This document shows positions 9,956 to 48,717 of a stretch of DNA of 64,000 bases, in pieces. The translations under genes and the position numbers were made by a program. Origin of the DNA: Tabrizicola sp. TH137 (lineage in GTDB: Bacteria > Pseudomonadota > Alphaproteobacteria > Rhodobacterales > Rhodobacteraceae); contig NZ_PKRQ01000003.1 in the NCBI RefSeq assembly GCF_002855575.1, positions 248,001-312,000 on the forward strand. The letters run 5' to 3'. The notes beneath the pieces were generated by a model. The model saw only the letters and a program-made list of their open reading frames with translations, had not been told where the DNA came from and made no database searches. Within the stretch, counting starts at the first letter, position 1; each line of letters begins with the position of its first letter.

Positions 9956-11779
9956 TCAGCTTCTGGCGCCGCGGGACTGGCCCACGGCGGATTGCATGGT
10001 CCTGACGACGACGAAGGCGTCGCGCAGGTGGGATCGTTCGAAATCCGACAGGTCGGACGGGGGAAGGAAGTTGTCGGGCCGGTGCCCGGCCCGCACCTGG
10101 CGGGCCTGATGTTCAAGGCGCGTCCGGGCGATCAGGTCATAGGCATCCAGCAGGTCGCGGGCGCCCGAGGGCGAGATGATGCCGGCATCGGCCGCCGCTT
10201 CCAGCCGGGCGCGGGTGTTGACGGCGGGCAGCCGCCCGATCAGCGCATAGACGCGGCCCAGATCGGTGACCGGGACCACGCCGTTATGTTTCAGGTCGAT
10301 CTGGTGCTTGTGTTCGCCCGAACGGATGGTGGCGAAGCCGCGCAGCAGGCCGAGCGGCGGCGCATGCTTGAGCGAATTGGCAATCATGTGGGCCACGAAG
10401 ATGGAGTTCCGCGCCGCCATGTCGAGCGTGTCTTCCTGAAGGGCGCGGAAGAGGGAGGGATCGCCGCCGATGGGGCGCAGGTCGAACATCACGGAGGCGA
10501 GCATCTGGGCCATGGGATCGGGGGTGGCGACCCAGGAGGCGAAATAGTCGCGCCAGACGCGGAGCGGTTGGCACCAGCGCGGATTGGTGGCCATCATGTC
10601 GCCGGGGCAATAGACATAGCCGCAGGCATCCAGCCCGTCCGAGACGAATTTCGCCAGCGCGGCGAACCAGGGCATGTCGGCCCCGGTCACGGCATCGGAC
10701 AGGATCAGGCAATTGTCCTGATCGGAAAGGCCGGTCTGTTCCTGCCGCCCCTGCGACCCGCAGGCCAGCCAGAGATAGGGCACGGGCGGCGGGCCAAGCC
10801 TCTGTTCCGCCAGCCAGAGCAGGCGCCGGGTGACGGTATCGGCGATGTCGGTGATCAGCCGGGTGACCACCTCATGCGCATTATGTGCGCCGACCAGTTG
10901 CAAGAGGAGGCGCGGGATGCGGGCGGTGACGCGGACCAGATCCTCCACCCCGTCGGCGGTGGCGGCATCGCGCACGAACTGGGCCGAGGAGACGGCCTGG
11001 AAGCGGGTCAGGTCGGTCTGGGTGACCATGCCGACGAGCGTGCCGTTCTCGACCACCGGCAGATGGCCGATGCGACGTTCCAGCATGATGTGCAGCACGT
11101 CGGAGCCCAGCGCCGAGGGCGGCAGGCTGACGGGATCGCGGGTCATCACCTCGGTCACCGGGCGGTCGGGGGACAGGCCCTCGGCCAGCACCTTTGCCGT
11201 CATGTCGCCCGTCGTGACGAGGCCGGCAAAGCGACCATCCTCGGTCACGCCGAGGCTGGAGACGGCGCGGTCGCGCATCCGTTCGGCGGCGGCGCGGATC
11301 GTGGTTTCGGCGGGCACGGTGATCGGGTCCGAGGCCATCAGCCGTTCCACCTTCTGCGAGGTGAGGTCGGCTTCGCGGTGTTCGGCGCCGCGGCCCCGCT
11401 GGAAGAAGCGTTCGAAGGCGGCGTGATCGGCGATGAGGCGGCGGAATTCGGCCACCGGCAGCATCAGAAGGACGGAGGGTTGCGTCGTGCGCGCGGTGGT
11501 CACGGCCAGCCCGTTGCGCATCAGCCCACGCTCGCCAAAGCTGTTGCGCGGCCCAAGAAGCGAGACGATGTTGCCCGAGGGTTCCAGCACCTCGACCGCG
11601 CCGCGCTTTACGAGATAGAGGCCCTTGAGCGGTTCGCCCGCGTGATAGACCTCTTCGCCGGCGGCGAATTCCCTGCGGCTGAAGGAACCGGCGACACGCG
11701 CCAGTTCGTCCTGCGGCAGGCCATCATAGGGATGCACCGTTTCGAGAAAGGCGATGATGGTCGCGAGCCCGTCATCCAT
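9956..11779 (-). CDS. cNMP-binding/CBS/DUF294 nucleotidyltransferase-like protein
   Basis: This 607-residue cytosolic protein has a cyclic-nucleotide-binding domain (about 12-125), a CBS-domain pair (about 145-265) and a DUF294 nucleotidyltransferase-like domain (from about 290) with the signature ACGSQGRQEQTGLSDQDN (G341, S342, D353, D355), followed by a helical C-terminal part. Relatives of GlnD-type nucleotidyltransferases of this kind regularly sit beside VC_2705 symporter/acs clusters and are thought to regulate them, though the reaction is unknown. CBS pairs bind adenine nucleotides, which fits the AMP made by acetyl-CoA synthetase. A strong terminator separates it from the symporter gene, so it probably has its own promoter. 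Confidence 0.88.
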   Translation of the reverse strand: MDDGLATIIAFLETVHPYDGLPQDELARVAGSFSRREFAAGEEVYHAGEPLKGLYLVKRGAVEVLEPSGNIVSLLGPRNSFGERGLMRNGLAVTTARTTQPSVLLMLPVAEFRRLIADHAAFERFFQRGRGAEHREADLTSQKVERLMASDPITVPAETTIRAAAERMRDRAVSSLGVTEDGRFAGLVTTGDMTAKVLAEGLSPDRPVTEVMTRDPVSLPPSALGSDVLHIMLERRIGHLPVVENGTLVGMVTQTDLTRFQAVSSAQFVRDAATADGVEDLVRVTARIPRLLLQLVGAHNAHEVVTRLITDIADTVTRRLLWLAEQRLGPPPVPYLWLACGSQGRQEQTGLSDQDNCLILSDAVTGADMPWFAALAKFVSDGLDACGYVYCPGDMMATNPRWCQPLRVWRDYFASWVATPDPMAQMLASVMFDLRPIGGDPSLFRALQEDTLDMAARNSIFVAHMIANSLKHAPPLGLLRGFATIRSGEHKHQIDLKHNGVVPVTDLGRVYALIGRLPAVNTRARLEAAADAGIISPSGARDLLDAYDLIARTRLEHQARQVRAGHRPDNFLPPSDLSDFERSHLRDAFVVVRTMQSAVGQSRGARS

Positions 11780-11817
11780 CGCAAGTCTCCGGTTCCATCC
11801 TCGTCAACGAAAAAGGG

Positions 11818-11848
11818 GGAAGCCCCGGCCAGAGGGGCCGGGGCTTCC
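11818..11848 (-). terminator. Rho-independent terminator of the symporter operon
   Basis: A perfect 13-bp stem (GGAAGCCCCGGCC and its complement, 5-base loop) lies just beyond the symporter stop. Read on the minus strand it is followed by CCCTTTTTC, so it should end the acs-adk-DUF4212-symporter transcript. Confidence 0.92.
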
Positions 11849-11856
11849 GTTTCTTG

Positions 11857-13812
11857 TCAGTGGGCCTGGGCCGCACCGGCGCCTTTCGGCACGCGGATCG
11901 ACTGGATCAGGTCCTGCACGTCCTGCGGCGGAGCCTTGGTCATGCCGGACACGATATAGGCCACCGCGAAGTTCAGCAGCGCGCCGATCGGGCCGAAGGC
12001 CGCAGGCGAGATGCCGAGGAAGTGGGCATCCGGCGTGTTCGGGAACATGTTCGTACCCGGGACGAAGAACCAGCCCAGGTAGAGGAAGATGTAGACCGAG
12101 GTCGTGATCAGACCGACCAGCATGCCTGCGATGGCGCCTTCCTTGGTGACGCGGGTGGAGAAGATCCCCATCATCAGCACCGGGAAGATGGTCGCAGCCG
12201 CCAGACCGAAGGCCAGAGCAACCACCTGCGCGGCAAAGCCGGGCGGGTCGAGGCCGAGCCAGGTCGCCAGCACGATGGCGAAGGCCATCGAGATACGCGC
12301 CCAGAGCAGTTCGCCCTTCTCGCTGATATCGGGCTTGAGCGCGCCCTTGATCAGGTCGTGGCTGATGGCCGAGGAGATGGCCAAGAGCAGGCCCGCCGCG
12401 GTGGACAGAGCCGCCGCCAGGGCGCCTGCGGCGACCAGTGCGATGACCCAGCCCGGCAGCTTGGCGATTTCCGGGTTGGCGAGAACCATGATGTCGTTGT
12501 TCACCGTGGTCAGTTCGTTCCCGACGAGGCCCTGTTCGGCCAGCGACTTGCCGTTCAGGCCGTTGGCCGGATCGGCCAGCGCCGCGTCGAGAGCCGCCTT
12601 CGCCTCGGTCACCTTGGCTTCGAGCGCGGCCTTGTCGGCATCGGCCGGAGCCTCGGCCAGGGCCTTGTTCGCATCGGCCAGAGCCTTGTTGGCCGCCGCG
12701 AGTGCCGGCTTTTCGTTGAAGTACTGGATCAGGCCGTCGCCGTTCTTGTCTTCGAACACCAGAAGACCGGTTTTCTGCCAGTTCAGGATCCAGGACAGTT
12801 CCGGGTTGGTGTTGATCTCCTCGACCGAAAGCGCGGGCTTGTCGAAGGCGCTGCCCTCGATTGCACCCGGCCAGAAGGTCGTGGTGATGTTCAGACGCGC
12901 CATCGACCCCACCGCCGGAGCGACGGTGTAGAGCAGCGCGATGAAGACCAGCGCCCAGCCTGCCGAAGACCGCGCGTCCGAAACCTTCGGCACGGTGAAG
13001 AAGCGGATGATCACGTGCGGAAGGCCCGCGGTCCCGATCATCAGCGACATCGTCACGAGGAACATGTTGAACATGTTCGGCGTGTCGGCGGTGTAGGCGG
13101 CGAAGCCCAGTTCCGTCACGACCTGGTCCAGCTTGTGCAGGAAGAAGTCATCCGGCGTGCTGCTCGGGGCATAGCCGCCGATCAGGCCGAGCTGGGGCAG
13201 GAAGTTTCCGGTCAGTTGCAGCGAGATGAACAGCGCCGGGATCGTATAGGCGATGATCAGCACGACATATTGCGCCACCTGCGTATAGGTGATGCCCTTC
13301 ATGCCGCCGAACACCGCATAGGCGAACACGACTGCCGAGCCGATCAGAAGGCCCGTCGTGGTGGACACTTCGAGGAAGCGCGCGAAGGTCACGCCGACGC
13401 CCACCATCTGCCCGATCACGTAGGTGATCGAGATCACCAGAAGGCAGATCACCGCCACCATCCGTGCAGAGGTGGAGTAGAAGCGATCACCCACGAATTC
13501 CGGCACGGTGAACTTGCCGAACTTGCGCAGATAGGGCGCAAGCAGCAGCGCCAGCAGCACATAGCCGCCGGTCCAGCCCATCAGGAAGACCGAGTTGTTG
13601 TAGCCCCCGAAGGCGATGAGACCCGCCATCGAGATGAACGATGCCGCCGACATCCAGTCGGCCGCCGTGGCCATGCCGTTCATGACCGGGGGAACGCCCT
13701 GGCTGGCGGCATAGAATTCCGACGTCGATCCGGCGCGCGCCCAGAAGGCGATCCCGAAATAAAGCGCGAAGGACGCGCCGACGACGATGAGATTGAGGGT
13801 AAACTGATCCAT
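11857..13812 (-). CDS. Sodium:solute symporter, VC_2705 subfamily (acetate/monocarboxylate uptake)
   Basis: This 651-residue inner-membrane protein of the SSS family has about 13 hydrophobic helices, with family segments such as ATAADWMSAASFISMAGL (48-65) and a TAAGLLLAISSAISHDL helix (471-487). The VC_2705 subfamily is the partner of the small DUF4212 protein encoded immediately upstream, and the acs/adk neighbours point to acetate or a related short acid. It carries a long hydrophilic insert at about residues 340-450 containing an EF-hand-like loop (DKNGDGLIQYF, 355-365) and an Ala/Lys/Glu-rich helical stretch (366-412). Confidence 0.9.
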   Translation of the reverse strand: MDQFTLNLIVVGASFALYFGIAFWARAGSTSEFYAASQGVPPVMNGMATAADWMSAASFISMAGLIAFGGYNNSVFLMGWTGGYVLLALLLAPYLRKFGKFTVPEFVGDRFYSTSARMVAVICLLVISITYVIGQMVGVGVTFARFLEVSTTTGLLIGSAVVFAYAVFGGMKGITYTQVAQYVVLIIAYTIPALFISLQLTGNFLPQLGLIGGYAPSSTPDDFFLHKLDQVVTELGFAAYTADTPNMFNMFLVTMSLMIGTAGLPHVIIRFFTVPKVSDARSSAGWALVFIALLYTVAPAVGSMARLNITTTFWPGAIEGSAFDKPALSVEEINTNPELSWILNWQKTGLLVFEDKNGDGLIQYFNEKPALAAANKALADANKALAEAPADADKAALEAKVTEAKAALDAALADPANGLNGKSLAEQGLVGNELTTVNNDIMVLANPEIAKLPGWVIALVAAGALAAALSTAAGLLLAISSAISHDLIKGALKPDISEKGELLWARISMAFAIVLATWLGLDPPGFAAQVVALAFGLAAATIFPVLMMGIFSTRVTKEGAIAGMLVGLITTSVYIFLYLGWFFVPGTNMFPNTPDAHFLGISPAAFGPIGALLNFAVAYIVSGMTKAPPQDVQDLIQSIRVPKGAGAAQAH

Positions 13813-27178: not shown

Positions 27179-27192
27179 GTCATCCGGATGAC
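27179..27192. promoter_or_regulatory. PhnF operator candidate (perfect palindrome)
   Basis: GTCATCCGGATGAC is a perfect 14-bp palindrome, extended by CGTC/GACG arms with one mismatch, and lies 21 bases before the TTG start of phnF. The same core recurs before phnC at 33559. GntR-family PhnF is the natural binder. Confidence 0.7.
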
Positions 27193-27212: not shown

Positions 27213-27938
27213 TTGGGGCGGGAAAGCTGGCGTCGCATCCGCGACGGACTTGCAGCAGAGATTGATGGCGGCGGCCTGCCGCCGGGCGCGCAACTGCCGA
27301 CCGAATCCGCGCTTTGCGCGCAGTTCGAAACCGGCCGCCATTCCGTGCGGCGCGCCGTGCAGGCGCTGGCTGTCGAGGGGCGCCTGCGCGTGGTGCAGGG
27401 GCGCGGCACTTTTGTAGAGGCGGCGCCGATGGTCCGCTATGCCATCGGTCGGCGCACGCGGTTCCGGCAGAACCTTCTGGATCAGGGGCTTGCCCCCTCC
27501 GGAGAGCCGTTGGCCGCCGAGACTGTCCCCGCCCCCGCATCCGTCGCCGAAAGCCTGGGCCTGGCTCCGGGCGATGCCGTGCATCGGCTGTTGCGGCGCG
27601 GTCTGGCCGATGGCGTTCCGGTCAGCCTTGGCTTGTCATGGCATCCGGCCGGCCTGTTGCCGGGCTTTCTGGAACAGCGCAATGCCGGGCTTTCGGTGAC
27701 GCAAGCCTATGCCGCCCATGGCATCGACGATTACTACCGCAAGCGGACCGAGATCTATGCCCGGCGCCCCGACCGCGAGGAGGCGAGGCTTCTGGCCCAG
27801 CATCCGGATCAGCCGGTGATGGTGGTCGTGAAGACCGACGTCACGCAAGAGGGGCGGGTGATTGGCCATTCCGAGGCAATCTGGGCCGCCGACCGCGTGC
27901 GCTTTACCATCGACAGCCTGGAGGCGGGGGATGCTTGA
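27213..27938 (+). CDS. phnF: Phosphonate operon regulator PhnF (GntR family)
   Basis: The 241-residue protein has an N-terminal winged helix-turn-helix (about 5-70, with LPTESALCAQFETGRHSVRRA as its core) and a C-terminal UTRA ligand domain (about 95-235). It heads the phn operon and overlaps phnG by 8 bases. The start is TTG 27213: no ATG or GTG fits, and GGAG lies eight bases upstream. A perfect palindrome in front of it is likely its own operator, giving autorepression. Related PhnF proteins sense a phosphonate-pathway ligand or phosphate state. Confidence 0.9.
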   Translation: MGRESWRRIRDGLAAEIDGGGLPPGAQLPTESALCAQFETGRHSVRRAVQALAVEGRLRVVQGRGTFVEAAPMVRYAIGRRTRFRQNLLDQGLAPSGEPLAAETVPAPASVAESLGLAPGDAVHRLLRRGLADGVPVSLGLSWHPAGLLPGFLEQRNAGLSVTQAYAAHGIDDYYRKRTEIYARRPDREEARLLAQHPDQPVMVVVKTDVTQEGRVIGHSEAIWAADRVRFTIDSLEAGDA

Positions 27939-28359
27939 TCGCGGCGAGGCCGGTGACCCCGGCGCCTTCCTTTCGGCCCTTGCCCGAAGCTGCCCCAAAC
28001 GCCTGAAGGCGATGGCCGAGGCCATGCTGCCGCGGCTGGGTGCGGTCGAGGTGGTGCAGTCGCGGACGGGTCTGGTGATGCTGCCCTTCCGCGACACGGT
28101 GCGCGGCAAGGATTTCTTTCTGGGCGAGGTGCTGGTGGCCGAGGCCCATATCCGGGCCAGCGGGATCGAAGGCTATGGCATGGTGACCGGGCGCGATCTG
28201 GAACGGGCCATGGCGATGGCCGTGCTGGATGCGGGGCGCGCGCTTGGCCTGTCCGAGGTGGTGGCCTTTGCCGCCCGCGAAGCGGCGGTTCAGGCCGAAG
28301 AGGATACGGCCCTTCTGCGCCGGGTCGAGGCGACCCGCGTCGAGATGGAGACCTTCTGA
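27931..28359 (+). CDS. phnG: C-P lyase core subunit PhnG
   Basis: The 142-residue protein matches PhnG, part of the PhnGHIJ core complex that forms and cleaves ribose-1-phosphonate. Typical parts are GEVLVAEAHIRASGIEGYGMVTGRD and the AMAMAVLDAG segment. I chose ATG 27931, which overlaps the phnF stop; earlier codons lie inside phnF. It joins phnH by a TGATG overlap. Confidence 0.93.
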   Translation: MLDRGEAGDPGAFLSALARSCPKRLKAMAEAMLPRLGAVEVVQSRTGLVMLPFRDTVRGKDFFLGEVLVAEAHIRASGIEGYGMVTGRDLERAMAMAVLDAGRALGLSEVVAFAAREAAVQAEEDTALLRRVEATRVEMETF

Positions 28360-28892
28360 TGGCCCTGCCCCACCCCACCCCTGACGATCTGCGCGACACC
28401 GACGCCTTCGAGGCGCTGATGTGGGCGATGGCGCGGCCCGGCACGGTGCGCAGCCTGCCCGAGGGCGCAGCCGATCTGGCGCTGGCGCTTCTGGACCGGG
28501 AAACCCGCGTTCATGCCGAGGATCCGGAACTGGCCCGCCGCATCGCCGCAACCGGGGCTGCGCTGGTGACGCCGGACCGGGCCGATCACGCCTTTTGCAC
28601 GACGGCGGCGGGGGCAATGGCCGCGCTGGCCGTGCTGCCGGTCGGGTCCGCGCTCTATCCCGATGAGGGCGCGACCCTGGTGATGCCCGCGATCATCGGC
28701 GCCGGGCCCCTGCTCGGCCTGACGGGCCCCGGAATCGAGGGGCAATGCAGGCTGCGGCTGGGCGGTTTGCCGGAGGGCCTGCTTGATCTGCGCAGTGCCC
28801 GCTGCCGCTATCCCGAAGGGATCGACCTCGTTCTTGTCGATGGGCGCCGCATCGTCGGCCTGCCCCGATCCGTCGCTGTGGAGGTGCTCTGA
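28359..28892 (+). CDS. phnH: C-P lyase core subunit PhnH
   Basis: The 177-residue protein matches PhnH: it starts with a FEALMWAMARPGTV segment, has DRADHAFC and PDEGATLVMP segments, and ends with YPEGIDLVLVDG. PhnH forms part of the core complex without known catalysis of its own. It is coupled to phnG and phnI by TGATG overlaps on both sides. Confidence 0.93.
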   Translation: MALPHPTPDDLRDTDAFEALMWAMARPGTVRSLPEGAADLALALLDRETRVHAEDPELARRIAATGAALVTPDRADHAFCTTAAGAMAALAVLPVGSALYPDEGATLVMPAIIGAGPLLGLTGPGIEGQCRLRLGGLPEGLLDLRSARCRYPEGIDLVLVDGRRIVGLPRSVAVEVL

Positions 28893-29944
28893 TGGCCTAT
28901 GTCGCAACCCGGGGCGGAGAACGCGCCATCGAGCAGGCCGAGCGGCTCTATCGCGAAGCGCTGGGTCCGATCACGCCCGAACGGGTGGCCGAACTGCGCC
29001 TGGCGCTGCCCCTTCTGGTGGACAGGGTGATGGGCGAGGCCTCGCTTTACGACCCTGACCTTGCCGCGCTGGCGCTGGCACAGGCGGGCGGCGATCTTTA
29101 CGAGGCAGTGCTGCTGCTGCGGGCCTGGCGCACGACGCAGCCGCGCCTGACGATTGCAGAACCCGTCAGGCAGGCCGAAATCCTGACTCATCGGCGGATT
29201 TCGGCGGCGTTCAAGGACATTCCGGGGGGCCAGATCCTTGGGCCGACGCTGGATTATGCGCACCGCATCCTCGCGACCGAAGTGATGGAGGGAGAGACCT
29301 TCACCCCTGCCCCGGTGACCCCGGCTGCCACTCCGGCCCCGGCCCGGCAACCCAGTCTGGCCGATTGGCAAAGGGCCAATGGGCTGGTCGCCGACCCGCC
29401 GCGCAGCGAGGTCGCCCCGGATGACATCCCGGATGTCACGCGCGAGCCGCTGCTGTTTCCGGCCAGCCGGGCGCATAGCCTGCAATCGCTGGCGCGGGCC
29501 GATACCGGGGGCCTGCTGGCGCTGGGCTATTCGGCGATGCGCGGCTATGGCAATGCCCATCCTACCGTGAACGAGCTGCGCCTCGGCGAGGCCGAGGTCA
29601 TGGTGCGCCACCCTTCGGGTGCGCTGTTCTCGGCCGGGCGGGTGCGGGTCAGCCAGGCGGAAGTCACGTCGAAGGGGAAATCCGGCCTGCTCGACCTTGG
29701 CTTCTGCGCAACCTTCGGCTGGAACGAGGTGAAGGTGATCGCCGGGGCCACGCTGGACCTGAACGCCTCCGGTGCCGCCAAGGGATCGCCGGTCGAGGAA
29801 GAATTCGTCCTCTATCATACGGAGCCGGTCGAGGCCTCCGGCTTCTGCATCCATTTCAAGCTGCCGCATTACGTGACCTTCCAGTCGTCGCTGGATGCGC
29901 TGCGGGGGGCAAAGACCGCGGAAAAGGACGAGGTGCCGGCATGA
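28892..29944 (+). CDS. phnI: C-P lyase core subunit PhnI
   Basis: The 350-residue protein is PhnI, which with PhnG and PhnH replaces adenine of ATP by the phosphonate to give ribose-1-phosphonate triphosphate. Conserved stretches are AYVATRGGERAIE, GYSAMRGYGNAHPT, GLLDLGFCATFGWNE, and HFKLPHYVTFQSSLD near the C-terminus. Length is normal. It overlaps phnH by TGATG and phnJ by ATGA. Confidence 0.94.
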   Translation: MAYVATRGGERAIEQAERLYREALGPITPERVAELRLALPLLVDRVMGEASLYDPDLAALALAQAGGDLYEAVLLLRAWRTTQPRLTIAEPVRQAEILTHRRISAAFKDIPGGQILGPTLDYAHRILATEVMEGETFTPAPVTPAATPAPARQPSLADWQRANGLVADPPRSEVAPDDIPDVTREPLLFPASRAHSLQSLARADTGGLLALGYSAMRGYGNAHPTVNELRLGEAEVMVRHPSGALFSAGRVRVSQAEVTSKGKSGLLDLGFCATFGWNEVKVIAGATLDLNASGAAKGSPVEEEFVLYHTEPVEASGFCIHFKLPHYVTFQSSLDALRGAKTAEKDEVPA

Positions 29945-30855
29945 CCCTTTCCACCCTGACCAGACCCTGGGCCGCGATAAGCTGGGGCTTCCTTGACGCA
30001 TCGGCCAAGCGCGAGATGCGGCGCAAGATGATCAAGGCCATCGCCGTGCCCGGCTGCCAGATGCCTTATGCCAGCCGCGAGGTGCCGATGGCGCGCGGCT
30101 GGGGCACCGGCGGATTGCAGGTGACGCTGACGCTCCTGCGGACGGACTCCGTCGTGAAGGTGATCGACCAGGGAGCGGATGACAGCGTGAATGCGGCCTC
30201 CATCCGGCGGTTCCTGTCGCGCGTCTCTGCCGCGGCGGAAACCTGGGACACGCTGGAGGCGACGCTGATCCAGAGCCGCCACCGCGTGCCCGAGGAACGG
30301 CTGCGCGAGGATCAGGTTCTGGTCCTGCAAGTGCCGAACCCCGAGCCGCTGCGGCCCGTGCAGCCGAACATGTCGATCGCCCGGCAGATGCATGCCGACG
30401 CCGACTACGGACGGCTGTGGCTTGTGCTTTACGAGCAGATGGTCCGGTCGGGCCGGATCATGCAGGGCGCGGCCTATCCGGCGCTGGTCAATGGGCGGCA
30501 TGTCATGACGCCCTCGCCCATCCCGCGCTGGGACGTGCCGAAGCTGCACATGGCGCGGCACCTGACCTTCCTGTCGGCGGGCCGCGAAAAGCGGCTTTAC
30601 GCCGTGCCGCCCTTTACCCGGGTGGAACCCCTGGTCTTCTCGGATGTGCCCTATAAGGTCGAGGATCACGCCGATCTGGTCTGTCACCGGTCGGGTCTGC
30701 GGGGCGTGTTCATGAACGAGATTCCGCAGGACGGCGGTGGTTCGGCCTTCGAGGCTTCGGACAGCCATCTTGGCATCAAGGCGATACGCCGGGCCGAAGG
30801 TGCGGCCACGACCATCGGCCCGATGTGGTATGAAGAGGGAAGGTTCCGGCCATGA
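29941..30855 (+). CDS. phnJ: PhnJ family protein, divergent C-P lyase lacking the cluster cysteines
   Basis: The first 235 of 304 residues follow PhnJ closely: KAIAVPGCQMPYASREVP (with G38, the counterpart of the radical-bearing Gly32 of E. coli), RGWGTGG, KVIDQGADDSVNAAS, QSRHRVPE, PSPIPRWD and AGREKRLYAVPPFTRVE. The C-terminus differs sharply. Where E. coli has two cysteines as CxxC, then a cysteine in the FVCSD segment and the DYC thiyl cysteine, this protein reads DLVCHRSG and FEASDSHLG, leaving only C248. C39 is the only other cysteine. The gene is intact and coupled to phnI and phnK, so it is not simply broken. Confidence 0.85.
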   Translation: MTLSTLTRPWAAISWGFLDASAKREMRRKMIKAIAVPGCQMPYASREVPMARGWGTGGLQVTLTLLRTDSVVKVIDQGADDSVNAASIRRFLSRVSAAAETWDTLEATLIQSRHRVPEERLREDQVLVLQVPNPEPLRPVQPNMSIARQMHADADYGRLWLVLYEQMVRSGRIMQGAAYPALVNGRHVMTPSPIPRWDVPKLHMARHLTFLSAGREKRLYAVPPFTRVEPLVFSDVPYKVEDHADLVCHRSGLRGVFMNEIPQDGGGSAFEASDSHLGIKAIRRAEGAATTIGPMWYEEGRFRP

Positions 30856-31652
30856 CGATGATGGATCGGCTGCCACCGACGCTGGTGGCGGGTGCGCCCC
30901 TGCTGCGGATGACCGGCGTCTCGCGTCGCTTCGGCCGGGTGACGGCGCTGGAGGATGTGGCCGCAACCGTCTGGCCGGGCGAGGTTCTGGGGATCGTCGG
31001 GGAAAGTGGTTCGGGCAAGTCCACGCTTCTGCGGATGATGAACCTCGAGGACAGTCCGGATGCGGGCGACTATCGGCTGGCCCTGCCCGACACGGCGGGC
31101 AACCTGTTCGATCTGGACCGGTTTGCCCGCCGCCAGCTCTGCGCCCGGCGGATCGGGATCGTGTATCAGAACCCGCATCTGGGCCTGCTGATGGGCCATT
31201 CCTCTTCGGGCAATGTGGCCGAACGCCTGCTGATGGCGGGCGAGCGCAGCTTTGCCGCGCTGCGCGCCCGGGCAAGGGGCGCGCTGGAGGCGAGCGAGTT
31301 TCCCCTGACGCGGATGGATGACCCGCCGAAGCTTCTTTCCGGGGGAATGCAGCAGAGGGTGCAGTTGGCCAAGGCCATCGCGCTGGAACCCGCGCTGCTG
31401 TTGCTGGACGAACCGACCACGGGGCTGGATGTCAGCGTGCAGGCGCTGGTGCTCGATACGCTGAAGCGATTGCAGCGCGACCTTGCCATCACCATGGTCA
31501 TCGTCAGCCATGATCTGGGCGTGATCCGGACCATGGCCGACCGGGTGATGGTGATGCGCCATGGCCGGGTGGTGGAGGAAGGTCTGGTTGACCAGGTCTT
31601 CCAGGACCCGCAGCACCCCTATACGCAGGAGCTGGTCCATGCCAAACTCTGA
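30852..31652 (+). CDS. phnK: C-P lyase system ATPase PhnK
   Basis: The 266-residue ABC-type ATPase has Walker A GESGSGKST (about 50-58), the LSGGMQQRVQLAKAI signature, Walker B LLLLDEPTTG and the H-loop SHDLG, and ends HPYTQELVHAKL as PhnK does. PhnK docks on the C-P lyase core rather than acting in import. It overlaps phnJ by ATGA and phnL by 14 bases. Confidence 0.92.
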   Translation: MTMMDRLPPTLVAGAPLLRMTGVSRRFGRVTALEDVAATVWPGEVLGIVGESGSGKSTLLRMMNLEDSPDAGDYRLALPDTAGNLFDLDRFARRQLCARRIGIVYQNPHLGLLMGHSSSGNVAERLLMAGERSFAALRARARGALEASEFPLTRMDDPPKLLSGGMQQRVQLAKAIALEPALLLLDEPTTGLDVSVQALVLDTLKRLQRDLAITMVIVSHDLGVIRTMADRVMVMRHGRVVEEGLVDQVFQDPQHPYTQELVHAKL

Positions 31653-32352
31653 ACCCGTCCTGGTGGTGGAAGGTCTGGCCAAGACCTTCACCATGCATCA
31701 TCTGGGACAAAGCCTGCATGCCTTTTCCGGCGTCGGCTTTGCCCTGTATCCGGGGCAGTTCCTGCTGTTGAAAGGGCCGAACGGGGTGGGCAAATCCACC
31801 CTTCTGCGCAGCATCTGGCGCAGCTATATGCCCGATGCCGGGCAGGTCTGGTTCAGCCATTCCGGCGGGCGGATCGACCTTGCCCGCGCGGCGGATGTGG
31901 ATATCGCCCAACTCAGGCGCAGCGACATGGGCTTTGTCACCCAATTCCTGATCGCACGGCCCCGCGTCTCGGCCGAAGAGATCGTGGCCGAACCCCTGCG
32001 CCGTGCTGGCCTTTCGGGCGAAGACGCCCTGGCCGATGCGCGGCATTGGCTGGCCACCTTTGGCGTCAAGCGCGATCTCTGGCGGGCCTATCCGACCAGC
32101 TTTTCGGGCGGCGAACAGCAGAAGGTCAATCTTGCCCGCGCGCTGATCCGGCCGCCGCGCCTGCTGCTTCTGGACGAACCCACCGCCTCGCTGGACGCAG
32201 GCGCGAGGGCCGCACTGGTGGCCCGCCTGCGTGAGTTGAAGGCGGCGGGCGTCGCCATGATCGGCGTCTTTCACCATCCGGGCGATGTGGCGGCGCTGAT
32301 CGACGGCGAAATCGAATTGCAGGCGAAGGAGGTGCGTGATGTGGCTGTCTGA
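31639..32352 (+). CDS. phnL: C-P lyase system ATPase PhnL
   Basis: The 237-residue ATPase has Walker A GPNGVGKST, the signature FSGGEQQKVNLARAL and Walker B LLLLDEPTASLDAG, plus the PhnL-like VTQFLIARPRVSAEEIVAEPL segment. ATG 31639 lies inside the end of phnK; earlier codons in frame are PhnK coding sequence in another frame. PhnL joins PhnK on the C-P lyase complex. Confidence 0.92.
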   Translation: MPNSEPVLVVEGLAKTFTMHHLGQSLHAFSGVGFALYPGQFLLLKGPNGVGKSTLLRSIWRSYMPDAGQVWFSHSGGRIDLARAADVDIAQLRRSDMGFVTQFLIARPRVSAEEIVAEPLRRAGLSGEDALADARHWLATFGVKRDLWRAYPTSFSGGEQQKVNLARALIRPPRLLLLDEPTASLDAGARAALVARLRELKAAGVAMIGVFHHPGDVAALIDGEIELQAKEVRDVAV

Positions 32353-33508
32353 TTTCCGTGTCGTGCTGGCAGACCGGGTGCTGCCGCGCGGCAGCCTGCG
32401 GATCGAGGGCGAGACCATCGCCGAGGTGTGCGATGGCATCGTCCCGGGTGCGGCCCTTTACGGCGAGGGGCTTTTGCTGATGCCCGGCTTCGTTGACATG
32501 CATGGCGACATGATCGAACGCGAGGTGGAACCGCGCCCCAATGTCAAGATGCCGATGGAACTCGGCCTGCGCGATCTGGACCGGCGGCTGAAGGTTTCCG
32601 GCGTGACCACGGCCTATGCGGCGGTCAGCTTCAACCCGAAATCGGCCTATGGCCATCTGCGCAGCTATGAGCATTCCCAGGAGATGCTGCGCGCCCTGAA
32701 GGCGCTGCGGCCGATCCTGAAGGTCGATCATCGCGTCCATGCGCGGTTCGAGATCAACTATCCCAACGCACTTGCCGTGGTGGAGGAGCTGATTGCCGAT
32801 GGCACGGTCGATCTGGTCAGCCTGACCGACCACACGCCCGGCCAGGGCCAGTATCGCGATCTGGAGCATCTGGCGCGGCGCACGCAGCGCGATCTGGGCC
32901 TGACGCCGGAAGAGGCCGAGGCGCATATCCGCGAGCGCATCGACGAAAAGCGCGCGCATGCGGGTGACGTGGCGGCGACCCTGGCCGCGATGTCCGGGCT
33001 CTGCGCGGCGCATGGCATTCCGCTTGCCAGCCACGATGACGATACCGCAGAGAAGGTGGCGCTGATGCAATCGCTGGGCGCAACGATCAGCGAGTTTCCG
33101 GTCACAATCGAGGCCGCGCAGGCGGCGCGACAGCGCGGCCTTGCCACCGCGATGGGCGCGCCGAATGTGGTGCGGGGCCAAAGCTATTCCGGAAATCTTT
33201 CGGCGCGCGATGCACATGCGGCGGGCCTTCTGGATATCCTTGCTGCCGATTACCACCCGTCGGCCATCCTGCCCGCGGTGCTGGAACTGGCGAAGGCCGA
33301 TCCTGAGGGGCTGGTGGGGGCAACGCGCCTTGCGACGGCGAACCCGGCGCGCGCGCTTGGCCTGGCCGACCGTGGCAGCATCGCCGCCGGTCTGCGCGCC
33401 GATCTGGTGATCGCCGATGACAGCGGCATCGGCCATGTCCGCGCCACGTTCCGCAACGGCCGCCAGATCTTTTCCGACGGGTCGCTGACGCTAGACATCG
33501 CCGCCTGA
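32339..33508 (+). CDS. phnM: Ribose 1-methylphosphonate 5-triphosphate diphosphatase PhnM
   Basis: The 389-residue amidohydrolase-fold enzyme removes pyrophosphate from the triphosphate intermediate to give the PhnJ substrate. Metal ligands are visible in FVDMHGDMIE, LKVDHRVHARFE, SLTDHTPGQGQ and ASHDDDT. ATG 32339 has AAGGAGG just upstream and overlaps phnL by 14 bases. It closes the first phn transcription unit; about 100 bases with a second operator follow. Confidence 0.94.
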   Translation: MWLSDFRVVLADRVLPRGSLRIEGETIAEVCDGIVPGAALYGEGLLLMPGFVDMHGDMIEREVEPRPNVKMPMELGLRDLDRRLKVSGVTTAYAAVSFNPKSAYGHLRSYEHSQEMLRALKALRPILKVDHRVHARFEINYPNALAVVEELIADGTVDLVSLTDHTPGQGQYRDLEHLARRTQRDLGLTPEEAEAHIRERIDEKRAHAGDVAATLAAMSGLCAAHGIPLASHDDDTAEKVALMQSLGATISEFPVTIEAAQAARQRGLATAMGAPNVVRGQSYSGNLSARDAHAAGLLDILAADYHPSAILPAVLELAKADPEGLVGATRLATANPARALGLADRGSIAAGLRADLVIADDSGIGHVRATFRNGRQIFSDGSLTLDIAA

Positions 33509-33558: not shown

Positions 33559-33570
33559 TCATCCGGATGA
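33559..33570. promoter_or_regulatory. PhnF operator candidate upstream of phnC
   Basis: TCATCCGGATGA, a perfect 12-bp palindrome identical to the core before phnF, lies 38 bases before the phnC start. It indicates that the transporter unit has its own PhnF-controlled promoter. Confidence 0.7.
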
Positions 33571-33607
33571 CGTGGCGGGGTTACCAAGTGGCGCGAGAGT
33601 GATGGGC

Positions 33608-34414
33608 ATGGAACAGCACAGCCTCATCCTCTCCGACATCACCCGCCGCTTCGGCGAGACCACTGCGGTAAGCCGCGTTTCGCTGGAGATACCGCCCGGC
33701 CAGTTCGTCGGCGTCATCGGCCGGTCGGGGGCAGGCAAGTCCACCTTGCTGCGCCTGATCAACCGGCTGATCGACCCGAGTTCGGGCCGCATCACCCATG
33801 GCGGGCGCGAGATCACGGCGCTGCGGGGCCGCGCCCTGCGCGAATGGCGCCGCGACTGTGCGATGATCTTTCAGCAGTTCAACCTGGTGGAGCGGCTTGA
33901 CGTGCTGTCGAATGTGCTGGTCGGGCGGCTGGCGGAACGCGGCTTTCTGTCCTCCATGGCCATGCGCTTCAGCGATGCCGAACGCACCGAGGCGCTGCGC
34001 GCGCTGGAGCGGCTGGACCTGTTGCCACAGGCCTTGCAGAAGGCGGGCACGCTGTCGGGCGGCCAGCAGCAGCGCGTCGCCATTGCCCGTGCGCTGGTCC
34101 AGAAGCCCCGCATCATGCTGGCGGATGAACCGATTGCCAGCCTTGACCCCGGCAACGCCACCCGCGTGATGGAGGCGCTGCGCAGCATCAATGCCGAAGA
34201 CGGGCTGACGGTCCTCGTCAACCTGCACACGATCGACACGGCCCGCACCTATTGCCAGCGCATCATCGCGATGCGTGAGGGGCGTGTCTTCTTTGACGGC
34301 ACCCCCCGGCAACTGACCAATGATGTCCTGCGCGACATCTATGGCAGCGACGGGCTGGCCGAATTCTCCGAATCCGTCACCTCGACCTCCGTCAGGGTCA
34401 AGGTGCCGGCCTGA
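33608..34414 (+). CDS. phnC: Phosphonate ABC transporter ATPase PhnC
   Basis: The 268-residue ATPase powers phosphonate import: Walker [10 protein letters not shown] (about 38-46), Q-loop FQQFNL, signature [15 protein letters not shown], Walker [15 protein letters not shown] chose ATG 33608, with GAGAG eight bases upstream; ATG 33602 leaves too little spacing. It starts the second phn unit, C-D-E1-E2. Confidence 0.94.
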
Positions 34415-34453: not shown

Positions 34454-35356
34454 ATGCGTCTGCTCGCCACCACCGCCTTCATCGCATTTGCCGCCGTTCC
34501 GGCCTTCGCCGAGGACTGGAGGGCCGATTACAAGGTCGTCAAGTTCGGCATTCTGTCGGGCGAGAACGAAAGCGACCGCATCGCCCGCTACACGCCGTTT
34601 CAGGAGTATCTTGAAGAGACGCTCGGCATCGAAGTCGAGATCTTCACGGCCGGAAACTATGACGGCGTGATCCAGGCGCTGGCGGCCGGGCAGATCGAAT
34701 TCTCGTTCCTCGGTTCGTCGGCCTATGCCGCCGCCTATACGGAAACCGAAGGCGGCGTGATCCCCTTGCTGACCGCGGTTCAGGAAGACGACTCGACCGG
34801 CTATTACTCGATCATCGCGGTGCGCTGCGACAGCGGCTACAAATCGGTGGACGACCTGAAGGGAAAGACCCTCGCCTTTGCCGATCCCGACAGCACCTCG
34901 GGCTACAATGTGCCTTACTACAACCTGGTTCAGCAGGGCTATGTCCCGGAGGAATTCTTCGCGGCGATCCCCTTCTCGGGCAGCCACGAGGCGGGTGTGC
35001 AGGGCGTGGTCAACGGCCAGTTCGACGCCGCCGCGACCTATATCAACAACGAAAAGAACGGCATCCCGCAGCGGATGGAAACCAAGGGCATGATCCAGGA
35101 AGGCGAAATCTGCTGGATCTGGACCAGCCCGGAAATCACCTCGGGCCCGTTCACCGCCCGTGCCAACCTGCCGCAAGGGCTGATCGACGAGATGAAGGCC
35201 GCCGTCATGGCCGCACCCACCGCCGCGCCCGAGGCGTTCAAGCAGATGACCGGCGCAGAGGACAGCACGGCGAAGGGTTACATCGAGGTCAATCACGATC
35301 GCTATCAGTGGATCGTGGACATGCGCGAGTGGTTCAAGAACCAGCGCAAGTCCTGA
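34454..35356 (+). CDS. phnD: Phosphonate ABC transporter periplasmic binding protein PhnD
   Basis: The 300-residue protein has a 19-residue signal peptide (MRLLATTAFIAFAAVPAFA) and a PhnD-type fold with FGILSGENESDR, PFQEYLEETLGIEVE, SFLGSSAYA and FADPDSTSGYNVP. It captures phosphonates for the PhnC/E importer. The ribosome site GAAGGGAG is strong, and a hairpin follows the gene, as is usual where the binding protein is made in excess. Confidence 0.94.
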   Translation: MRLLATTAFIAFAAVPAFAEDWRADYKVVKFGILSGENESDRIARYTPFQEYLEETLGIEVEIFTAGNYDGVIQALAAGQIEFSFLGSSAYAAAYTETEGGVIPLLTAVQEDDSTGYYSIIAVRCDSGYKSVDDLKGKTLAFADPDSTSGYNVPYYNLVQQGYVPEEFFAAIPFSGSHEAGVQGVVNGQFDAAATYINNEKNGIPQRMETKGMIQEGEICWIWTSPEITSGPFTARANLPQGLIDEMKAAVMAAPTAAPEAFKQMTGAEDSTAKGYIEVNHDRYQWIVDMREWFKNQRKS

Positions 35357-35408: not shown

Positions 35409-36308
35409 ATGACCTATTCCCTCACCGATTTCGACCGCGACTACAGGGAGCACCGCCGCCGTTCGCGGATGGTGTTCTGGTCGGCGGCGCTTCTGCTGGC
35501 CGTGCTGACCTGGGTCACCTCGGCCCTGTCGGGTTTCTTCAAGGTCACGCAATACACCCTGCCCGACGGCAGCCGCGAGGAGGGTTGGGTGATTCCGGCA
35601 GGGTTGCCGCGACTTGGCGAATACCTGTCGAAGACCATCCCCGAATTGCGCTGGGAGTCCCTTCTTGCCGATATCGCCAACTGGTTCGGCCGTGGCGCGA
35701 TCTGGGCCGAACTTTTGCTGGAAACCGTTCTCATCGGCTTTCTGGCCACGCTCTTTGGCGTGATCGGCGGGCTTCTTTTGTCCTTCGTGGCCTCGCGCAA
35801 CCTGTCGCCCGCGCCCTGGATGCTGTGGGTCAGCCGCCGCAGCCTGGAGATCATGCGGACGGTTCCGGAACTGGTCTGGGCGCTGATCTTCGTCTTCTGC
35901 TTTGGCGTGGGGCCGATGGCGGGCGTGCTGGCCATTTCGATCCACGCGGCAGGCGCGCTGGGCAAGCTCTATTCGGAAGCCAATGAAAACATCGACATGC
36001 GCCCGGTCGAAGGGGTGAAGGCCGCGGGCGGAAGCTGGGCCGACCAGATGCGATGGGGCGTCTTCCCGCAGGTTTTGCCGAATGTCATCAGCTATACCCT
36101 GCTGCGGTTCGAAATCAACGTCCGGTCCTCTTCCATCATCGGCTATGTCGGCGCGGGCGGCCTGGGGCAGGAACTGCGCACCGCCATCAGCCTTCAGGAA
36201 TACACCAACCTTTCGGCCCTGTTCCTGATCATCTTCGCCACGGTGATCGTGATCGACTGGGCATCGGAACGCATCCGCCACCGCATCATCGGGATTGTCA
36301 CAGCATGA
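35409..36308 (+). CDS. phnE: Phosphonate ABC transporter permease PhnE (first copy)
   Basis: The 299-residue permease has about six membrane helices (first at about 23-43) and the PhnE motif region LYSEANENIDMRPVEGVKAAGGS, followed by YVGAGGLGQELR. It overlaps the second phnE by ATGA, giving a heterodimeric channel. Two different PhnE proteins per importer are common in alphaproteobacteria. Confidence 0.92.
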   Translation: MTYSLTDFDRDYREHRRRSRMVFWSAALLLAVLTWVTSALSGFFKVTQYTLPDGSREEGWVIPAGLPRLGEYLSKTIPELRWESLLADIANWFGRGAIWAELLLETVLIGFLATLFGVIGGLLLSFVASRNLSPAPWMLWVSRRSLEIMRTVPELVWALIFVFCFGVGPMAGVLAISIHAAGALGKLYSEANENIDMRPVEGVKAAGGSWADQMRWGVFPQVLPNVISYTLLRFEINVRSSSIIGYVGAGGLGQELRTAISLQEYTNLSALFLIIFATVIVIDWASERIRHRIIGIVTA

Positions 36309-37162
36309 GCCTGTCAGACAGCGACATCGCCGACATGAAGGCCCGCATGCCGCTGGCCTTTCGCGCAAGCCCCGCCCAGCGCCTGCGCCGCACCCTGCTC
36401 TGGGCCGCGCTTGCGGGTCTGACGGCCTGGTGCCTTTACGCCTTCGACTTCTCGCCTGCCCGCATCTGGAACGGCCTGGCCCGACTCGGGAATGTGCTGT
36501 CCTTCATGTTCCCGCCGCATGTCTGGACCGATGCCCGGTCGTGGCAGGAGATTGCCAAGGGTCTGGGCGAGACGCTGTCCATGGCCTTTCTGGGCACCGT
36601 CCTTGGCGCGCTGGTGGCCTTTCCGCTGTCGTTTCTGGGCGCGAAGAACATCAACCGCCTGCCCTTCCTGCGCTTCACCCTGCGGCGCGGTTTCGACATG
36701 ATCCGGGCGCTGGAGACCCTGATCCTCGCGCTGGTCTTCATCCGCGCCTTCGGCCTTGGCCCGCTGGCGGGTGTGCTGGCGATTGCGGTGGGGGAAGTGG
36801 GTGTGCTGGCCAAGCTTTATGCCGAGGCCATCGAGAACAGCTCGAACCGCCCCATAGAGGGGGTGGTCGCCGCCGGTGGCAGCCGCCCGCAGGCGATCCG
36901 GATTGGTCTTCTGCCTCAGGTCTGGCCGGTGCTGCTGTCGATCACACTCTACAATTTCGAATCCAACGTGCGGTCGGGAACGATCCTCGGCATCGTCGGT
37001 GCGGGCGGCATCGGCTTCCTGCTGTCGGATCGGATCGGCGCCTATCGCTGGGACGAGGCATGGTCGATCATCTTCCTGATCATCGCCATGGTCTATCTGA
37101 TCGACTGGCTTTCGGGCCTGATCCGCGCCCGTTTCATCGGCAGATGGGAGGGTGTGCGGTGA
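36305..37162 (+). CDS. phnE: Phosphonate ABC transporter permease PhnE (second copy)
   Basis: The 285-residue permease parallels the first copy, with [23 protein letters not shown] and [19 protein letters not shown] 36305 overlaps the stop of the first copy. The N-terminal 30 residues are cytosolic and charged. Its TGA overlaps the ATG of a possible small ORF (TGATG). Confidence 0.92.
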
Positions 37163-37407
37163 TGGCGCGGGGGATCAAGGTCGCCGGTCCCGAAGACGGG
37201 AGGCGGGATGTGCCGCCTGCCCTGAACCCCGAGGACGGGTCCGGGCGAGCCGTCGGTCCCTGGATGGGCCGTGCCCTGCCCGGAAAGGGTGGGGGCGATC
37301 TGAAGACCCTCGGCAAACCCATGGCGCCCCGGCCCGGTGGCCGGGCGCGCGGGTCCGACTGCCGGAACCCCTTGACCCCCCAACACAGAGCGGAAGCCAA
37401 CGCATGA
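37162..37407 (+). CDS. Possible small protein, Gly/Pro/Arg-rich, coupled at both ends
   Basis: An 81-codon frame runs from an ATG overlapping the phnE stop (TGATG) to a TGA overlapping the next start (ATGA). The product ([20 protein letters not shown]...) is rich in Gly, Pro and Arg with no recognisable domain or helix, so it may be translated only to carry ribosomes to the next gene. No separate ribosome site is evident at its start. Confidence 0.35.
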
Positions 37408-38012
37408 AGACCCTGACCGAAGCGCCGACCGTCCATGAGAGCGCAACCCTCATTGATTGCACTTTGGGCAAGTGGACCGAGGTCATGGCCCAAGTGACCA
37501 TGCGCGAAGTGACCTTTGGCGATTACTCCTACATCGTCCGGGGCGGCAACGTGGTCTGGTCCACCATCGGCAAGTTCTGCTCGATCGCCGAAGGCGCGCG
37601 GATCAATCCGGGCAATCACGCGACCTGGCGCGCCGCGCAGCATCATTTCACCTATCGCGCCGCGCAGTTCGGGTTTGGCGAGGATGATGACGCGTTCTTC
37701 CAGTGGCGCCGCGACCATTGGGTGACCATCGGACATGACGTCTGGATCGGCCATGGCGTCACGATCCTTCCCGGCGTGACCGTCGGCACGGGCGCGGTGG
37801 TCGGCGCGGGGGCCGTGGTCTCGAAACCCGTCGCGCCCTATGAGATCGTCGGTGGCGTGCCGGCCCGCCACATCAAGTGGCGGTTCGACAGGCCTGAGGC
37901 GGAGGCACTGCAACGGATTGCCTGGTGGGACTGGGACCATGCGCGGCTGACGGCCGCCTTGCCGGATTTCCGGGCGCTGGACATTCATGCCTTCCTTGAA
38001 AGATACGCGTAA
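37404..38012 (+). CDS. Hexapeptide-repeat acyltransferase of phosphonate operons
   Basis: The 202-residue protein is a left-handed beta-helix transferase of the type found in phn operons (phosphonate-metabolism hexapeptide family, often labelled chloramphenicol acetyltransferase). Repeats run through [37 protein letters not shown] and [25 protein letters not shown]. The histidine in NHATW is in the place of the usual catalytic base. GGAAG lies just upstream. It probably acetylates an aminophosphonate or pathway intermediate; the substrate is not known from sequence. Confidence 0.88.
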
Positions 38013-39060
38013 TCTGCCGGGGCGCATTCGGGGGCATCGCGTGACATCTCTAGCGCGCATAGTGGCGGGGCTGTCGATCGGCGGCCTTGGCGGCTGTGTG
38101 TTCCATCTGCTTTCCATGCCGCTGCCATGGATGCTGGGGGCCCTGACCGCCACGATGGCCACCTCGGTCGCCGGCTGGCCCATCCGCGGGCCGGACCGGC
38201 TGAGACCGGTCATCGTCGCTGTCATCGGCGTCTTGCTGGGATCGCGTTTCACGCCGGGCATCATCGAACAGGCGGGCGAGATGCTGACCTCGCTGGCCAT
38301 CCTTCTGGCCTATCTCGTGGCGGTGGGAGGCGTGATCGTCAGCTACTTCCGTCTGGTCGGGCGGCAGGACTGGACCACCGCCTATTTCGCCGGAATGCCC
38401 GGCGGCCTTTCGGAAATGGTTGAACTCGGAGAGGCAAGAGGGGCGAATGTTCCGGTGATCGTGCTGGCGCATTCGCTGCGGATCGTTCTGACGATCGCGC
38501 TGATGGCCATACTGTTTCGCCTTGTGCTTGGCCATGACGTGGGCACTGGGCCGGTCAAGCTTGACGCTGCCATCGGGCCAGTGGATGCGGCCCTTCTGAT
38601 CGCCTGTGCGGTGATCGGGATGCCGCTGGGCAGATTGTTGCGCCTGCCTGCGCCGACCTTTCTGGGTCCGCTGATCCTGTCGGCTGCGGTGCACATGGCC
38701 GGGCTGACGGCCAGTGTGCCGCCCCTTCTGCTGGTGAATGCCGCGCAGGTCGCGCTGGGCACGATCCTGGGATGCCGCTTCCTTGGCATTTCTGTCCCCA
38801 CCCTTGCGCGGGCCTGCGCCCTGAACCTTGGCGCCACGCTGATCACCCTGACCTTTGCCCTGGGCGGTGCGCTGGCGATGCAGCAGCTTGCAGGGGTGCG
38901 CCTTGACCAGGGATTTCTGGCGCTGGCACCGGGCGGACTGACGGAAATGGGCCTGATCGCCCTTGCCATCCAGGCCGATGTGGCCTTCGTCGCGCTGCAT
39001 CACGTGATCCGCATTCTGGCTGTGATCGTCGTCGCCCCGCTTCTGCTGCGGCAGAGATAG
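37987..39060 (+). CDS. AbrB-family membrane protein
   Basis: The protein (357 residues from ATG 37987, or 339 from GTG 38041, which has a G-rich ribosome site) has about ten hydrophobic helices in two similar halves: [15 protein letters not shown] with [19 protein letters not shown] in the first, and [15 protein letters not shown] with [15 protein letters not shown] in the second. This is the AbrB duplication family (PF05145), of uncertain transport function despite its regulator-like name. ATG 37987 overlaps the previous gene by 26 bases. Its link to phosphonate use is by position only. Confidence 0.8.
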
Positions 39061-48641: not shown

Positions 48642-48717
48642 TGGTGCCGCTGAAGGGACTCGAACCCCCGACCCCATCATTACGAATGACGTGCTCTACC
48701 AGCTGAGCTACAGCGGC
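48642..48717 (-). tRNA. tRNA-Thr (CGT)
   Basis: Read on the minus strand this is a complete cloverleaf: acceptor stem GCCGCTG/CAGCGGC, D arm GCTC-AGCTGGTA-GAGC, anticodon arm CGTCA-TTCGTAA-TGATG with anticodon CGT, T arm with GGTTCGAGT, discriminator A, and encoded CCA. It decodes ACG. Confidence 0.96.

Follow-up and report, generated by a model that had tools for sequence, protein, structure and literature searches.

How could a C-P lyase work if its PhnJ protein has lost most of the catalytic cysteines? In the PhnJ of Escherichia coli, Cys241, Cys244 and Cys266 bind a [4Fe-4S] cluster, Cys272 forms a thiyl radical, and Gly32 is the radical site. The question is raised by a phn locus of Tabrizicola sp. 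TH137 (Rhodobacteraceae), which lies within the stretch of 64,000 nucleotides analysed here and called the window in the following (positions 248,001 to 312,000 of contig NZ_PKRQ01000003.1, assembly GCF_002855575.1). A first-pass annotation of this DNA had claimed that its PhnJ is devoid of three of the four essential cysteines, although the operon is otherwise intact.

Organization of the phn locus

The genes form the run phnF-G-H-I-J-K-L-M-C-D-E-E, which is followed by a gene for a hexapeptide acyltransferase, and the whole set is located on the + strand of the window. The run begins with phnF (27213..27938), coding for a GntR/UTRA regulator (TIGR02325, 182.8 bits, cut-off 156.8), and continues with phnG (27862..28359 as the ORF is listed, possibly with its start at an ATG near 27931; Pfam PhnG, 75.5 bits, cut-off 32.4; NCBIfam, 80.4 bits, below the cut-off of 89), phnH (28359..28892; TIGR03292, 110 bits, cut-off 91.5), phnI (28892..29944; Pfam PhnI, 362.5 bits) and the variant phnJ (29941..30855; Pfam PhnJ, PF06007, 377.2 bits, cut-off 25), whose product has 304 amino acids. 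The next genes encode the ABC ATPases PhnK (30852..31652; best NCBIfam match PhnK, 221.8 bits, below the cut-off of 302.85), which also falls into the variant clade, and PhnL (31639..32352, with an inferred start, as the listed ORF begins at 31561; best NCBIfam match PhnL, 228.7 bits, below the cut-off of 256.3), and the ribosyl phosphonate triphosphate diphosphatase PhnM (32336..33508; NF011988, 505 bits, cut-off 369). They are followed by the importer genes phnC for the ATPase (33572..34414; TIGR02315, 318.9 bits, cut-off 266.1), phnD for the substrate-binding protein (34454..35356; TIGR03431, 269.5 bits, cut-off 261.1) and two copies of phnE. Both permeases were assigned through clustering with the genes of relatives and not by a family scan: the first (35409..36308) clusters with genes at the same place in variant loci, which are annotated as phnE in L191 and L192, and the second (36053..37162 as clustered) probably has its true start near 36300. 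The acyltransferase (37386..38009; Pfam Hexapep) is a common phn companion, found in 15 of the 30 variant stretches (29 loci and the window).

Curated NCBIfam cut-offs are thus passed by PhnF, PhnH, PhnM, PhnC and PhnD, whereas PhnG, PhnK and PhnL have their own C-P lyase family as the top match and yet stay below its cut-off. An NCBIfam search with PhnI and PhnJ at 0.001 gave no match, and both were placed by Pfam. In the list of ORFs, the phn genes around the variant phnJ are open frames that abut or overlap, which agrees with the earlier description of the genes as open and coupled. An AbrB-family (PF05145) membrane protein is encoded after the operon at 37987-39057, and a related gene ends the variant locus L046. 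ARAGORN detected a single tRNA gene in the window, a tRNA-Thr (anticodon cgt) at 48642-48717 on the - strand.

Conserved operators had also been proposed, and the palindrome TCATCCGGATGA indeed occurs as two identical copies in the window, a likely operator upstream of phnF (27180..27191) and a second copy upstream of phnC (33559..33570). With one mismatch allowed, two or more matches appeared in 15 of 100 shuffles, so that the placement of the copies is telling and not their number. Upstream of phnF, the best palindrome resembles TCATCCGGATGA in 16 of 21 variant loci, the window included. As 17 of 200 shuffles of the window stretch also produced a palindrome with an equally high score (8 of 9), the evidence for an operator lies in the shared sequence rather than in the score. 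At the canonical locus L193, a search for the palindrome found none. Apart from the palindrome region, a repeat search yielded nothing but short repeats. We infer that PhnF binds TCATCCGGATGA.

Residues lost and retained in PhnJ

Residues 14-275 of the window PhnJ align to E. coli PhnJ (7z15_D) in phmmer with an E-value of 3.2e-79. According to this and the family alignment, Cys241 of E. coli corresponds to C248, which is kept, and Cys244, Cys266 and Cys272 are replaced by S251, A272 and G278, respectively, in the C-terminal region of the protein (30661..30790). The reported loss of three cysteines is therefore real, and it is not due to chance, because all 121 canonical rows and none of the 42 variant rows have Cys at columns 251, 272 and 278. 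C248 is present in 40 of these variants and replaced by Asp in the other two. The C-terminal region contains one cysteine in 38 variants, none in two, two in one and three in one, never at columns 251, 272 or 278, and the PhnJ proteins of L055 and L056 are entirely free of cysteine. C39 and C248 are, as stated before, the only cysteines remaining in the window protein; C39 occurs in 22 of the 42 variants. Judging from these alignments, the variant PhnJ should be incapable of binding a [4Fe-4S] cluster via the known ligands and of forming the Cys272 thiyl radical.

The glycine of the radical loop, already recognized as retained, is G38. It corresponds to Gly32 of E. coli and is invariant in all 42 variants, as are G53-W-G-T56, R113, H114, Q130, H151, R215 and E216. 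In E. coli, Arg107, His108, Gln124 and the loop 47-50 contact 5-phosphoribosyl 1,2-cyclic phosphate (PRcP), as described in passages of PMC9947105, and the equivalent R113, H114, Q130 and GWGT loop are thus kept throughout the variant clade. About half of the residues differ from E. coli PhnJ, and the variant has a new C-terminal tail and newly conserved positions, which are P262 and K280 (42 of 42) and H207 and T209 (40 of 42). D153 and S212 were rejected as diagnostic residues: they held on 38 rows and are absent from both Thermus proteins.

Phylogeny and distribution

The alignment of PhnJ proteins, proposed earlier as a check for a clade with the same ending, yielded 42 sequences with the same loss of cysteines from Alphaproteobacteria, Chloroflexota and Thermus thermophilus (including plasmid pVV8 of strain HB8). 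In a tree of 81 rows and 229 columns, from which the C-terminal region was excluded, the 42 cysteine-poor proteins make up one side of a branch and thus one clade (ultrafast bootstrap 100, SH-aLRT 99.3); an earlier tree of 79 rows without Thermus had given a support of 99 for the variant split. When species-representative genomes were searched with the window protein, 29 of the best 80 of 590 loci were variants with 60-86% identity, and the other 51 of these best 80 were four-cysteine proteins with at most 53% identity. The 29 variants include proteins from Paracoccus, Haematobacter, Devosia, Hoeflea, Aureimonas, Neorhizobium, Mesorhizobium, the Roseobacter group and Anaerolineae MAGs. The label Bacteroidetes of one locus (L058) may be wrong, as this locus falls among the Anaerolineae.

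Among 301 sampled Chloroflexota genomes, 27 contain PhnJ, and in nine of these (including G316, the centre of the search) the variant occurs alone. A sample of 398 Pseudomonadota genomes gave a PhnJ match in 84, over the cut-off in 83; five of the 398, all Alphaproteobacteria, have a second full-length copy below 400 bits, four of which were scored without alignment. In the family of the window's organism, PhnJ was found in at least 147 of 295 sampled genomes. The variant also resides on plasmids. The PhnJ query matched 215 plasmid records, the 16 closest of which comprise eight with at least 60% identity and eight from Thermus with about 59%, and the three cysteines are missing in all five of these 16 that were read (Haematobacter, Nitratireductor, Microvirga and two from Thermus including HB8 pVV8). 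Near-identical variant phn modules are found in Paracoccus shanxieyensis (L032), in Aureimonas altamirensis (L039) and on the Haematobacter plasmid (L191), and the similarity of these sequences suggests recent transfer between orders. On plasmid pMVF16-1 of Microvirga sp. VF16 (NZ_CP069355.1), the PhnJ query matches nine separate places, the best of which is the variant that was read.

Selection and predicted structure

The first-pass annotation had interpreted the locus as not decaying and as possibly having a cluster with other ligands. The former view holds, as the whole-gene dN/dS of the variant phnJ was 0.05-0.14 in the 12 pairs compared and the same change is seen in three phyla; the latter is not supported, for reasons given below. 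Within the gene, pN/pS amounts to 0.18-0.65 in the C-terminal part versus 0.10-0.16 in the core. An AlphaFold model of the variant PhnJ, based on 51 sequences, has a mean pLDDT of 81. The C-terminal region, whose modelling had been recommended, reaches block means of 87-94 over residues 241-300. The best PDB matches of the model are E. coli PhnJ chains, with TM-scores of 0.79-0.80 by query length and 0.86-0.88 by target length. Given the C-terminal pLDDT and these matches, the domain is predicted to retain the fold in spite of the missing metal ligands.

Co-divergence of the partner subunits

Trees of PhnI (34 variant rows of 86) and PhnK (33 of 84) reproduce the split between variant and canonical proteins with SH-aLRT values of 99, both trees carrying long-branch warnings. 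Mean identities to the window proteins, calculated from 25-29 variant and 15-51 canonical proteins each, are 73% for PhnI, 77% for PhnK, 67% for PhnL, 59% for PhnM, 53% for PhnG and 46% for PhnH at variant loci, and 41, 47, 42, 37, 32 and 32%, respectively, at canonical loci. From these identities and the matching splits, it seems that PhnG to PhnM diverged together as one machine.

His328 and His333 of PhnI bind zinc in E. coli according to passages of PMC9947105. Their counterparts H321 and H326 are kept in the window PhnI and are present, like H223, in all 30 variant and all 51 canonical rows examined; Thermus PhnI carries the same HYKLPHY stretch. The variant system thus shares with E. coli C-P lyase Gly32, the PRcP contacts, the zinc histidines of PhnI and the gene order from G to M. 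Newly conserved in the variant PhnI are C319 and E311 (each in 32 of 34 rows), and C319 is the sole newly conserved cysteine in a screen of PhnG, PhnH, PhnI, PhnK, PhnL and PhnM. Canonical rows mostly have Val or Ile at this position and Thermus has Ala, and C319 thus fails as a clade-wide diagnostic residue. PhnK and PhnL of variant loci contain few cysteines (on average 0.8 and 0.4 versus 2.9 and 1.9 in canonical proteins).

Canonical PhnJ copies and product recycling

A second, canonical phnJ, for which a search of the genome had been proposed, was found. The ordinary PhnJ also encoded by the organism (L001; G000 C33:255984) is of the same family as the variant but has four cysteines, is about 49% identical to it, and is adjoined by PhnN and DUF1045, encoded approximately 2 kb away. 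Among the 29 variant genomes from the best 80 of 590 loci, 20 contain another PhnJ, which has four cysteines in 19 cases and is represented by matches split over two contigs in the remaining one (G306). No other PhnJ was found in the other nine or in eight further Chloroflexota genomes. The variant is thus the only PhnJ found in 17 genomes; as these are mostly MAGs or drafts, the absence of canonical PhnJ is provisional, and one of them, Haematobacter massiliensis CCUG 47968 (L049), is from an isolate. In genome G295, a canonical and a variant phnJ are situated about 21 kb apart on one contig, and at locus L073 the variant phnJ (1880-2797) lies about 9 kb from a divergent four-cysteine phnJ (10700-12073) on the same contig, with a third PhnJ elsewhere in that genome.

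If PRcP were formed by the variant system, the sugar phosphate would be recycled by DUF1045 and PhnN or by a PhnP-like enzyme, the genes for which often lie at other sites of the genome. In favour of this, DUF1045 and PhnN score over the cut-off in all three alphaproteobacterial genomes that have the variant as their only PhnJ. In the H. massiliensis isolate, PhnN is divergent from phnF and DUF1045 follows about 5 kb further, with unrelated genes between; at locus L048, whose genome also has a canonical PhnJ, both follow phnM. At the variant loci PhnN lies within the analysed stretch in only three of 30 cases. Also against such recycling, PhnN over the cut-off is absent from 14 of the 17 sole-variant genomes, namely from all 14 of the Chloroflexota type, and PhnP over the cut-off from all 17. 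A PhnP-like match is present in eight of the Chloroflexota-type genomes, at 101-120 bits against a cut-off of 272, and DUF1045 is matched weakly (31 bits) in one of the 14, G320.

Substrate hints from gene neighbourhoods

Two variant loci, L053 and L058, additionally contain a gene for phosphonoacetaldehyde hydrolase (332 and 343 bits, cut-off 220), which in L053 is joined by a TIGR03364 oxidoreductase (430 bits, cut-off 285). These neighbours point to phosphonates as substrates. L045 and L046, upstream of phnF, and Thermus pVV8 (L189 12001-24846) instead encode a UgpB-like binding protein of a sugar-type ABC importer and a metallophosphoesterase. The UgpB scores are 65 bits in L045 and 219 in pVV8, both short of the cut-off of 411, and the assignment in L046 rests on clustering. 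These genes, which recur in unrelated lineages, point to phosphate esters. Substrate evidence across the variant loci is therefore mixed, comprising both phosphonates and phosphate esters. Passages of PMC10132767 report that a sugar ABC transporter and a predicted phosphodiesterase are raised in Phaeobacter under phosphate limitation.

Possible mechanisms of the variant system

Considered as sequence evidence, the comparisons show the loss of the cysteines, the monophyly of the variants, the co-divergence of their partners and the retention of the zinc and ribose-cyclic-phosphate sites. The case for a different chemistry or another activity, which the first-pass annotation had put forward, is strengthened. 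Our tentative preference, with a probability slightly short of even, is that the variants form a separate, maintained branch of cluster-less C-P lyases, which would cleave their substrate at the zinc site without a SAM radical and would depend on a better leaving group than methyl. PhnI and PhnM would still make 5-phosphoribosyl 1-phosphonate or a similar intermediate, and the steps leading to it look intact because PhnM passes its cut-off. At the zinc site of PhnI and PhnJ, the 2'-OH of the ribose would then attack phosphorus and expel the substituent without a SAM radical, with PRcP as the product. PRcP is also what the canonical core complex yields from a ribosyl phosphonate, together with an alkane. 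Such a reaction would work only with a reasonable leaving group, as in activated phosphonates and P-O or P-N compounds, and not with methylphosphonate. Cleavage at the zinc site is favoured because the parts for ribosylation and for holding the product are kept and those for SAM-radical chemistry are gone; purifying selection and the 17 genomes with the variant as the only PhnJ found argue for a cluster-less branch. According to passages of PMC9947105, PRcP was also present in the E. coli complex without any supply of phosphonate, for which the authors suggest a side reaction. This fits an attack at the zinc site without demonstrating it. However, the invariant Gly32 would have no evident role if no radical were formed, and the faster evolution of the C-terminal domain, the mixed neighbourhoods and the draft or MAG status of most sole-variant genomes also count against the zinc-site reading. 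It is more doubtful, though possible, that the whole system is a non-radical, cluster-less machine that breaks phosphorus bonds, including the C-P bonds of activated phosphonates, at the zinc site and is probably oxygen-tolerant; the lack of PhnN at most variant loci slightly lowers the likelihood of such a non-radical C-P lyase.

The main rival to zinc-site cleavage, which we regard as rather unlikely, is that the variant PhnJ serves as a non-catalytic scaffold. The complex would then only couple phosphonates or phosphoryl compounds to ribose (PhnI) and trim pyrophosphate (PhnM), and cleavage of the phosphorus bond would fall to the canonical PhnJ of that cell or to another enzyme, or would not occur. 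This would account for the missing radical centre, for the weaker constraint on the changed C-terminal domain than on the core, and for the presence of another PhnJ in 20 of the 29 genomes, but not for the nine plus eight genomes in which none was found, nor for the invariance of the PRcP-binding residues.

A rearranged radical chemistry, in which the Gly32 radical is generated in trans by a separate activase and the thiyl radical sits on a different cysteine, e.g., PhnI C319, seems improbable. It would explain why Gly32 never varies, and C319 lies two residues before a zinc histidine. However, Thermus PhnI has Ala in its place, no activase gene is among the clusters recurring beside variant operons, and a distance of 31 angstrom separates Gly32 from the zinc in the open state of the E. 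coli complex according to passages of PMC9947105. Even less credible is the cluster with altered ligands (C248, H249 and H277) offered by the first-pass annotation. C248 is kept in 40 of 42 variants, but only eight of 42 have His at column 249, and column 277, occupied by Tyr, Leu, Phe or Trp throughout the 42, is never His; with Asp for C248 in two variants and the cysteine-free L055 and L056 this arrangement is very improbable. Replacement ligands from newly conserved cysteines of the partner subunits were considered and rejected, as the only candidate is PhnI C319, absent in Thermus. A sequencing or assembly error or a decaying gene, with which the more variable C-terminal part would agree, can be dismissed almost entirely, since identical losses are common to 42 rows of one clade from many assemblies, all with open frames and low dN/dS.

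Implications for C-P lyase biology

A full-text literature search, with most subscription journals outside its coverage and thus no proof of absence, retrieved no recognisable account of a PhnJ clade lacking these cysteines. All annotated plasmid variants that were read are named as ordinary PhnJ. As marine surveys count C-P lyase by means of phnJ (parts of PMC9381506 and PMC6852614), their results may be affected by such annotations. In the passages of PMC9947105 on the mechanism, that of C-P lyase is still termed an unresolved conundrum, and the cluster site of the E. coli complex is placed about 30 angstrom from Gly32. In a natural clade that has dropped the cluster and retained both Gly32 and the zinc site, evolution has separated these parts, and the clade may show which of them can work alone.

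The PhnJ of T. thermophilus HB8 plasmid pVV8 (WP_014677597.1) belongs to the same cluster-less clade, is about 59% identical to the window protein over residues 14-301, and is encoded in the run C-D-E-G-H-I-J-K-L-M. It differs in the absence of D153, S212, Y43 and PhnI C319 and in a LacI-type gene as the nearest upstream regulator. This member is probably a heat-stable protein for structure work. If the zinc-site reading is true, the clade would represent a naturally evolved non-radical C-P lyase, present even in T. thermophilus.
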